34,026 nucleotides of DNA from assembly GCA_017882785.1 (NCBI GenBank), contig JADGOV010000024.1, positions 1 to 34,026 of the forward strand. Direction: 5' to 3'. Each line of letters starts with the position of its first letter. Positions within the stretch are counted from its first letter, which is position 1. Of this stretch, positions 27,710 through 31,472 are shown in pieces. Both the position numbers and the translations under genes were made by a program. Source of the DNA: Frankiaceae bacterium (lineage in GTDB: Bacteria > Actinomycetota > Actinomycetes > JADGOV01). The notes under the pieces are model-generated. The model worked only from the letters and a program-made list of their open reading frames with translations. It made no database searches and had not been told where the DNA came from.

Positions 27710-28273
27710 GTGAGTGACGTTGACGTGCTGGCCAGCGTGCTGACCAAGGACCAGGCGCTGGTTTCCGCTGTCAACCCCGAGCAGTTGGGTGCCCCGACGC
27801 CATGCCCGGAGTACGACGTCCGCGCCCTTGTCAACCACATTGTCGGCTGGCTTCAGGTGTTCGCGGCCGGAGTCAACGGGCGCACGTTCGACGGCGATCC
27901 TGCAGCTTTCGTCAGCAACGATCCGGTGACCGACTTCCAGACCGCCGCCGCTGAAACCGTCACAGGGTGGCGCTCCGGTGGAGTGGACCGCGCGGTCCGC
28001 CTGACCGGCCCGGAGTTGCCCGGTCACATGGTTCTCGCGATGACGCTGATGGAGTACGTCACCCACGGCTGTGACCTGGCCGCGGCGACAGGCCAGGCCG
28101 TGCCCTTCAGCGACGAGGAACTCGCGATCACCCTGGACCGGGCGCGGGCCACCCTGCCGGACCAGTACCGCGGCGAGGGCAAGCCGTTCGGCTCTGTGAT
28201 CGACGTTCCAGAGGACGCTCCCGTCTTGGACCGGTTCCTCGGCTTCATGGGCCGGTGTCCGCGACACGGATGA
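27710..28273 (+). CDS. TIGR03086/DinB-fold metal-binding protein (mycothiol-type)
   Basis: A 187-residue member of the TIGR03086 (maleylpyruvate isomerase N-terminal, DinB-like four-helix) family. Marks are PTPCPEYDVRALVNHIVGWLQVFA with the first metal histidine, and MEYVTHGCDLAAATG with Glu and the second histidine. Family members include mycothiol-dependent enzymes, but most are of unknown reaction. GTG 27710 follows a strong GGAGGAG six bases away; the track's start at 27233 is rejected because the extra N-terminus is low complexity and no family member has it. It stands alone, and its C-terminus ends before the glycosyltransferase wreck. Confidence 0.85.
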   Translation: MSDVDVLASVLTKDQALVSAVNPEQLGAPTPCPEYDVRALVNHIVGWLQVFAAGVNGRTFDGDPAAFVSNDPVTDFQTAAAETVTGWRSGGVDRAVRLTGPELPGHMVLAMTLMEYVTHGCDLAAATGQAVPFSDEELAITLDRARATLPDQYRGEGKPFGSVIDVPEDAPVLDRFLGFMGRCPRHG

Positions 28274-28282
28274 GGGACCAGC

Positions 28283-29500
28283 TCAGCTCGACAGGTGCCG
28301 AAGCTTGAGCCAGGCCGCGTGCCAACCGCCGATCACGCCGGTGCAGCGGAACACCGCGGTCCGCTGGGTCTCCTCGTTGCTCACCGGTCCCACAAGGCGG
28401 CGGAAGAGCGTGCGGCCGAAGAAGTAGGCGCTCGGCGCGCCGTCCTCCCATACGACCACGACCGGAGCGACACCGGCTGGTGGAGGTCCCCACAGCCCGT
28501 AGCCATTGTGGCCACTCCAGGCATGCGGGAGGCCTCGGCTCGGCCCGTAGCGGTCCACCGCGCCCGCTTCCCCGTAGTTGCTCGTGAAGATCCCCGCCCG
28601 GGCGCGTGCCTGGCCGGGGACGGACCGGTATGCCGCCGCCACCTCATCGACGAGCGGCTGCCAGCCGGCGGTCTCGCGCAGGTTCTCCCCGAGTCCACTC
28701 CAGATCGAGGCGTCCAATGTGCGGGCGGAGAGTACGGGAACGGTCGCCGGAAGGATGTGCGCCGCGCTGACCAGGACCGCGCCCAGCGCCCACCACCACC
28801 TGCGCCCCCGCCGCTCGGCGACCACTGCGCCAGCCGCGATGAGCACCGGGTAGATGCCGGCCGGGTAGTAGCCTTGCCCCGCGGTAAGGATGAGGACGGC
28901 GAGCACGACGAGCCAGGCCCACGCCAGCACCCGGTAGGCCCGCCACGCATCGTCGCGCCACAGCGAAGCCACGCCGGTCACCCACAGGTAGGTCGCACCG
29001 AGGCTGAACAGCACCAGCTGCAGGGCGAAGAAGCCGACCCGCTGACCGGGTGTGCCGTACTCCGCGCGGATCTCCCGCGCCAAGGTCAGCTGCGGCCACC
29101 CGTGCGCCGCCTGCCAATACAGCACCGGCGCCCACGCCGCGACCGCGACCGCCACGCCGACCCAGAGCCAGCGACTGCGCAGCCCCACCGAACTCCGGGG
29201 CCAGCAACCCGCTCAACACCGTGACCGCCACCGCGGCGAACAGGGCGGGGGCGCGGAAGACGGCCAACGAGCCGTGGCCGAGGCTGTTCATCCACCGGGC
29301 TACCAGCGGCGTCAGCGGCGGTTGATCCGGATAGCCCCAGGCCGGATGTCGTCCGCAGGCCAGGAAGTACAGCTCGTCGCGGTGGTAGCCGTACTACTGT
29401 TGACCGCTACCAACAGCGCCGCGACGCCGCCGACGATCGCAGCCAACGTACCGCCGGCGACCGGGGGAAGCTCCCTGCTCCCGGTGGCTCCTACTGTCAC
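28283..29500 (-). pseudogene. Broken GT39/ArnT-like membrane glycosyltransferase
   Basis: Three fragments in different frames form one gene. The C-terminal 301 codons (28283-29188) read LRSRWLWVGVAVAVAAWAP and QAAHGWPQLTLA, the multi-helix part of PMT_2-type glycosyltransferases that use polyprenyl-phosphate sugars. A second frame (about 29190-29393) gives the family's signature RDELYFLACGRHPAWGYPD then QPPLTPLVARW, with the catalytic-type Asp-Glu. A third frame (to 29500) gives an N-terminal helix (GTLAAIVGGVAALLVAVNSS). A frameshift near 29394 creates a TAG, and about 100 residues are missing between EFGG and LRSR near 29185. The family is normally about 500 residues. The protein cannot be made intact, barring assembly error. 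Confidence 0.8.
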
Positions 29501-29711
29501 CTCCTGCCGCCTACCCTGTTCGGGCGTCGGCCTATCCTGCGACGAGCTACCTCACCGACAACCAGCGCATCCTTGTCGACGGCAGGTGAAGACTGACGCC
29601 CTTGATCTATGGCTACCGCGTCTGGTTCTGGTCGGCCGCTGTGCCGACCTGACCCCACGAATGCACGCTCATGCGCGCGAAGCTACCTTGCAGCACACCA
29701 AGCTAGTGCAC

Positions 29712-29783
29712 ATGGGAAGCAGGAACAGCGCGGGGATTCTCTTGTTCCGCAAGGCTGGTTCGGGTGTGGAGGTGCTCCTCGGG
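29712..29783 (+). pseudogene. NUDIX hydrolase N-terminal remnant
   Basis: ATG 29712 opens MGSRNSAGILLFRKAGSGVE then VLLG, the usual first strand of NUDIX hydrolases (compare SAG-LL-R-GVEVLL). After about 24 codons the similarity stops and the reading frame runs into integrase-derived DNA. No NUDIX box is present. The 29501-29711 stretch before it holds no recognisable gene. Confidence 0.6.
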
Positions 29784-29790
29784 ACGAGCC

Positions 29791-30024
29791 CGGCTCGGCT
29801 ACGACCGCGCCCGGGTGCTGTTCGGCCAGCACACCGGCTGGGACTGCACCAGCTCCGCAGCCACCCACCTCGGCGAGCACGGCGTTCCGCTCCAGCTGAT
29901 CATGGCGAAGACCCGGCACCGCAACCCCCGCACCGCCATGCGGTACATCCGGCCCGGCAGCCAAGCTGTCGCCGAGGTCACCGAACTCCTTGACATCGCC
30001 CCACCCCGACGACCGGAACCAGCA
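29791..30024 (+). pseudogene. Tyrosine integrase C-terminal remnant
   Basis: The frame reads RLGYDRARVLFGQHTGWD, then THLGEHGVPLQLIMAKTRH and RNPRTAMRYIRPG, then AVAEVTELL. This matches the C-terminal catalytic end of XerC-like site-specific recombinases, with the nucleophile Tyr in AMRYIRPG. The expected box LHQLRHSAATH, holding the conserved HxxR, is replaced by DCTSSAATH, so residues that activate the tyrosine are gone. Only the last ~75 residues of a ~300-residue protein remain, joined to a NUDIX scrap. 30025-30266 is without a supported gene. Confidence 0.75.
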
Positions 30025-30266
30025 AGATCAAAGACTTGGCGGGCCGGGACAGGCACCCAGCGCCGGGCCTACTCAGCGACAGCGTGGCGGCCACAGACTG
30101 CAGCAGCGCGTGACGTGCCCCGGATCATCCGATGTGGCTGTGGCAACAAGCGGTCGCCCCGGCGCGCCTCCCGTCGGGGACGCGCCAAGAGCTGGCAGCG
30201 CGGCCACCACGGTCTCGGTATGCGGGGCCATGGGATACGCCCATTGCCCGCCGGCAAGGAGTGGAC

Positions 30267-31472
30267 TCACCGTGCCAGGCTGGTTCGCAGAGCAATCACC
30301 CGCTTGACGGAGGTGAGGAAGGCGGCGCGCCCGAGAGTCCCGCCGCGCAGCGCGCGCGCCAGGGCGCTCGCCCCGTTGATCCCGTCGCTGACGTTCTCGC
30401 CGGAGAACAGGAGCAGATCCAACCCCGCCCTGGCGGCAAGTACCCCGCGCACTGGAAGGGTGCCAAAGGCACGCAACGCGCCCGCTTCGAGGGCATCGGT
30501 CACGGTTACTCCACGGAATCTGAGCCGCTGACGCAGTTCCTTCTCGACGATCGTCGACGACAGCCCGGCCGGCCAGTGGGCATCGAACGCCGGATAGACG
30601 GCCCACGAGACCATCACCAAACGAACCCCGGCGGCGATCGCGGCCTGATAGGAGGCTTCGTCCACGCCGCGAAGCGACGGCAACGACAGGTCCAGTGTCA
30701 CCGGTCGCAGGTCAGTGTTCTGGGCCGTCGCGGCCGCCCCGAGGCCGGGGAAGTGCTTGGCGGTGGCGGCAACGCCGGCCTGTTGCTGTGCCGTGATGAA
30801 CGTCGAGCCGAGCTGCGACACCCTCGAAGCGTTGCCGCTGTAGGAGCGCTGGAACTGGTCGAGGAAGTCACCGGCCTTCCTGTACACGTCCAATACCGGA
30901 GCCAGGTTCACGTTCATGCCCACCCCCCGCAGGTTATGACCGGCACCTGTTCCGGCCTGGCTTGCAAGCAACATGCCGTTGGGTGAGCGGCCGATCTGCC
31001 GCTCCGCGAGCACCGGGGCACCCGGGAGGCGGCGCACGAGGCCGCCCTCCTGGTCGGTCAGCATGAGCAACGGCGCCCGCACCGGGCTCTTCTTGTTAGC
31101 TTGCTGTAGTTCTTTGATGACCACGCGGATCTGATCGAGGCTCGAGATGTTCCCGTTGAAGAAGATGACCCCCGCCGCCTCACCAAGACTGATCTTGGCA
31201 AGCAGGCTGGCCGGAGGTGTCAGGCCGCCGTAGCTGTAGATCACCCGCTGACCCGCGAGTTGCTGAGGCGACAGCCCGGCCAGCACGGCGTCGCCTGCCA
31301 CAGCTGCCGGCCTGGCCGGTTGGGTCGCCGCCGGTTGGGTCGCCGCCGAATGGGTCGCGGGCGTGCTCGGCGCGGAACGCGGCTTGTCGGCCACCGCGTT
31401 GCCGCACGCGGAGGGGAGTCCCACCGCAAGCAGTGCGCCCGACGACAGGATGATCTTGCTGATGGGGCTCAA
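30267..31472 (-). CDS. GH3-family beta-N-acetylhexosaminidase-like lipoprotein
   Basis: A 401-residue glycoside hydrolase family 3 protein of the NagZ/LpqI type, which removes N-acetylglucosamine from cell-wall fragments. A lipobox LPSAC (about 19-23) marks it as a lipoprotein; a Thr/Ala/Pro linker (30-60) with a 15-bp DNA repeat encoding AATQP follows. The barrel has LMLTDQEGGLVRRLPG, NLAPVLDVYR, AKHFPGLGAA and the nucleophile-type Asp in VTVTDALEAGAL. KHFPGLG replaces the KHFPGHG of classic NagZ, so the usual His of the acid/base loop is absent; this also occurs in actinobacterial relatives. TTG 31472 is backed by GGAGAGGGA upstream. Substrate is inferred. Confidence 0.83.
   Translation of the reverse strand: MSPISKIILSSGALLAVGLPSACGNAVADKPRSAPSTPATHSAATQPAATQPARPAAVAGDAVLAGLSPQQLAGQRVIYSYGGLTPPASLLAKISLGEAAGVIFFNGNISSLDQIRVVIKELQQANKKSPVRAPLLMLTDQEGGLVRRLPGAPVLAERQIGRSPNGMLLASQAGTGAGHNLRGVGMNVNLAPVLDVYRKAGDFLDQFQRSYSGNASRVSQLGSTFITAQQQAGVAATAKHFPGLGAAATAQNTDLRPVTLDLSLPSLRGVDEASYQAAIAAGVRLVMVSWAVYPAFDAHWPAGLSSTIVEKELRQRLRFRGVTVTDALEAGALRAFGTLPVRGVLAARAGLDLLLFSGENVSDGINGASALARALRGGTLGRAAFLTSVKRVIALRTSLAR

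Follow-up and report, generated by a model that had tools for sequence, protein, structure and literature searches.

The DNA between 28286 and 30012 of the window (the whole stretch of 34,026 nucleotides that was analysed) is, with a probability of roughly 0.92, a cluster of ordinary pseudogenes, in which a decayed GT39-type glycosyltransferase gene lies beside a fusion of NUDIX hydrolase and tyrosine recombinase (integrase) fragments. This is ordinary genome decay and there is no sign of a functioning system. The evidence comes directly from the pieces themselves, from their lesions relative to intact relatives, from the breakpoint between two of them, and from the finding that no att-like repeat exceeds the chance level. 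All three relics had been recognized in an earlier note made from the DNA alone; they are present at that place, with coordinates refined as follows.

28286-29188, minus strand: C-terminal piece of the glycosyltransferase gene, about 301 codons in an open frame with a GTG at 29188; 66 % identical to the intact frame in genome G026
29184-29393, minus strand: middle piece of the glycosyltransferase gene, in another frame, with the RDELYF first-loop motif; 68-70 % identical to the intact orthologue
29393-29497, minus strand: N-terminal piece of the glycosyltransferase gene, identified by its frame and orthologue alignment; separated from the middle piece by a one-base frameshift
29712-29783, plus strand: start of a NUDIX hydrolase gene, 24 codons long and ending before the NUDIX box; matches the N-termini of intact NUDIX-like proteins
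29776-29790, plus strand: breakpoint between NUDIX and integrase homology
29776-30012, plus strand (start about 29776-29782): 3′ end of a tyrosine recombinase gene, ~79 codons, the HxxR region wrecked by small deletions; Pfam, DNA and protein matches
29844-29858, plus strand: LHQLR codons, still present but not in the frame used by the remainder of the integrase tail, from frame reading and DNA alignments

The window is an entire contig (C151) of a draft genome of 3.2 Mb in 230 contigs, 99 % complete and with 1.6 % contamination. The nearest genomes used for comparison are of the same class only, none being from the same order or below. Elsewhere in the window, AbiEi/AbiEii-type genes at 286-1955 on the plus strand (PF13338, E 2e-14; PF08843, E 1.3e-20) form a type IV toxin-antitoxin-like pair, and between 31000 and 34026 the G+C content falls from about 0.70 to 0.58 toward the contig end. 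A literature search for comparable cases turned up nothing more specific than general papers about integrases and pseudogenes.

Glycosyltransferase pseudogene

Three frames on the minus strand, from 28286 to 29497, together spell one GT39/PMT_2-type glycosyltransferase gene, and eight uninterrupted orthologues in other genomes align across all three pieces. Comparison with these confirms the frameshift and the large internal deletion that had been proposed for this gene, and maps both. The frameshift is of one base, just before YGYHRDELYF, around 29393-29400. The deletion is at the end of the middle piece (29184-29188). When a 489-residue stretch of the best orthologue (G026, 66 % identical over the C-terminal tail) was used as the query, only its residues 30-108 and 188-488 were matched in the window; these two matches overlap by 35 bases and the real loss is therefore about 80-90 codons, or roughly 250-270 bp. 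Much of the PMT_2 domain has gone with it. The family name GT39, which we take over from the earlier note, was tested here as the presence of PMT_2 in the intact orthologue (PF13231, E 3.8e-19, residues 54-215 of the stretch), and it is on this orthologue, not on the window pieces, that the PMT_2 assignment of the relic rests. Homology to intact members across most of its length supports descent from the GT39/PMT_2 family; the single frame, first-loop Asp/Glu motif and full PMT_2 domain of a functional member are not found together.

No second copy of the gene was found in this 99 % complete genome. In the genome_contigs collection, the gene matched no more than a relative at 38 % and a short segment at 61 %. 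In the relatives, no NUDIX start is found near the intact glycosyltransferase gene, which is the only gene there in common with the window, one weak protease match (L031) excepted; no ancestral linkage between the glycosyltransferase and NUDIX genes is therefore demonstrated.

A tRNA-Gln called by ARAGORN across the deletion junction (29124-29198, minus strand) was considered as an integration target and judged to be a false positive. Even with the threshold relaxed to E 1, Rfam gives no tRNA at this place, and the stretch beneath the call is mostly conserved glycosyltransferase coding sequence.

NUDIX fragment

The stretch 29712-29783, MGSRNSAGILLFRKAGSGVEVLLG, matches the N-termini of NUDIX-like proteins from five other genomes, near their starts, in agreement with the earlier note, which took it for the 24-codon start of a NUDIX hydrolase. 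The best match is 82 % over 22 aa (E 1.7e-4, G019), and the one intact relative that was checked has the NUDIX domain (PF00293, E 1.9e-16). The fragment stops where most of its relatives go on with HMGGPFWA. By pattern scan there is no NUDIX box (GX5EX7REUXEEXGU) in the window, so the fragment lacks what defines a NUDIX hydrolase. Ten NUDIX domains are present elsewhere in the same genome, none of them a close match to the N-terminus of the fragment.

Integrase relic

On the plus strand the sequence from 29776 onward is SGRARLGYDRARVLFGQHTGWDCTSSAATHLGEHGVPLQLIMAKTRHRNPRTAMRYIRPGSQAVAEVTELLD, which corresponds to the C-terminal region of a tyrosine recombinase that occurs both on plasmids and in genomes of actinobacteria. 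The tail had previously been put at about 75 codons; its presence is borne out and its length is now about 79. Pfam Phage_integrase is matched at E 0.0011, below the curated cut-off, and a relative in genome G323, in which a longer frame is retained, has 75 % DNA identity over about 200 bp. Several of the closest relatives in other actinobacteria look broken too, in Nonomuraea (L072, 3200-4220), G291 (L096) and G125 (L097).

It had been suggested that the HxxR box (LHQLRHS) was replaced by DCTSS. This is not so, as the LHQLR codons persist at 29844-29858 in another frame. DNA alignments to the Nonomuraea and G323 copies give net losses of one base before and eight bases after LHQLR, which produce the 'DCTSS' reading while the outer frame is kept. 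The active site is thus destroyed despite the surviving codons. A functional tyrosine recombinase has R...HxxR...Y in one frame; here, the N-terminal Arg region is absent and HxxR is out of frame, and homology to the C-terminal Phage_integrase domain identifies the relic as a recombinase by descent.

On another contig (C196) the same genome has an intact recombinase of 367 aa that belongs to the same broad family, so such elements do occur in it. About a dozen further Phage_integrase matches were seen in this genome (G000), one of which, on C105, is split in two; C19, C196, C198 and C176 are among the other contigs with matches. Phage origin of the relic was rejected, there being no match to it in the phages collection and none confirmed in viral_contigs.

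With two of the lesions being single-base and the overall frame restored in both the glycosyltransferase and the integrase, the frameshifts in this draft assembly of 230 contigs might be sequencing or assembly errors, the glycosyltransferase at least being truly intact. Errors in the consensus could account for the one-base lesions; however, the loss of about 80-90 glycosyltransferase codons, the cut NUDIX gene and the missing N-terminal part of the integrase are not single base-call errors, although a misassembly could mimic them, and the main genes of the window are long open frames that read through, as judged by inspection only. It is very improbable that such errors explain the cluster.

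Junction and repeats

Among integrase relatives with a full tail, the strongest start to match at the DNA level at 29782-29790, and the NUDIX match ends at 29783. The junction is thus a sharp breakpoint within both coding regions, the two homologies meeting within a few bases. Among 395 genomes of the class, no match spans it.

Recombination by a tyrosine integrase would leave att repeats beyond the limits of the integrase gene. A search for such repeats flanking the cluster found nothing of the kind: the longest exact repeat common to 28000-28600 and 29650-30550 is 12 nt, which is within the range for Markov-shuffled sequences (mean 10.1, maximum 14 nt) and therefore at chance level, and a general search found no direct repeat longer than 16 nt. 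The direct repeat beside the integrase that would mark an integrated element with att sites is thus absent above chance; very short or imperfect att cores may be present. With repeats at chance and no phage or viral match, site-specific integration is not supported. Since the breakpoint lies inside both genes, illegitimate recombination fits better than an integrase-mediated event. The earlier proposal, a mobile element recombining with host genes and then decaying, is therefore supported as to the decay of host genes beside an integrase relic and unsupported as to site-specific recombination.

The same breakpoint could mean that illegitimate recombination has a local hot spot here, in which a NUDIX/integrase fusion was trapped and decay is ongoing. 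As this one breakpoint is what speaks for it, there is only a slender chance that this is the case.

Coding signal

Codon usage was scored, in bits per codon, with a model built from thirteen intact genes of the window. Scores are positive for the middle (0.38) and C-terminal (0.33) pieces of the glycosyltransferase and for the integrase piece (0.22); the N-terminal glycosyltransferase piece (0.06 on 35 codons) and the NUDIX piece (0.10) score weakly and are too short to judge. Past 30012 the open frame scores -0.28 and runs antisense over a glycoside hydrolase gene, so the 255-aa ORF at 29764-30531 is, as called, unlikely to be a gene.

The least probable explanation is that the remaining frames, both open with a GTG start, are small functional genes, since the 301-aa glycosyltransferase tail from the GTG at 29188, well conserved though it is (66 %), has lost a large part of the PMT_2 domain along with the RDEL motif of the first loop, and the 255-aa frame has neither a coding signal over its antisense part nor, in the class genomes searched, any match that spans its fused form.

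Probable history

For the pseudogene cluster, we infer both an order of events and illegitimate recombination as the mechanism. The glycosyltransferase gene would have lost its function via the one-base frameshift and the internal deletion; an adjacent illegitimate deletion or rearrangement would have joined the 5′ end of the NUDIX gene to what was left, at the 3′ end, of a tyrosine recombinase gene of the plasmid/island type, the active site of which would then have decayed further by small deletions. The damage to the glycosyltransferase need not be connected with the integrase. Counted against decay are the 301 glycosyltransferase codons still open without a stop.

As far as the draft genome shows, these observations suggest that the glycosyltransferase and the NUDIX gene have been lost from the lineage. 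For annotation there is a risk that a gene caller could list the glycosyltransferase in truncated form, along with a spurious protein of 255 aa.

Comparison with known families

Compared with the NUDIX subfamily starting SAGILLxRxxGxGVEVLLGHMGGPFWA, the fragment shares the first 24 residues, but is cut off and without the NUDIX box. Relative to the actinobacterial plasmid/island tyrosine recombinases (Phage_integrase, PF00589; relatives in Nonomuraea and on Streptomyces plasmids), the integrase relic lacks the N-terminal part, the first catalytic Arg, and an in-frame HxxR, whereas the C-terminal ~79 codons are alike, the Nonomuraea copy being 63 % identical in aa and about 75 % identical in DNA. 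Likewise, although frameshifted and without about 80-90 codons, the glycosyltransferase relic shares with the actinobacterial GT39/PMT_2 (PF13231) family its sequence, the length of its tail, and the YGYHRDELYF and HGWPQL/SNYGEAGA motifs.
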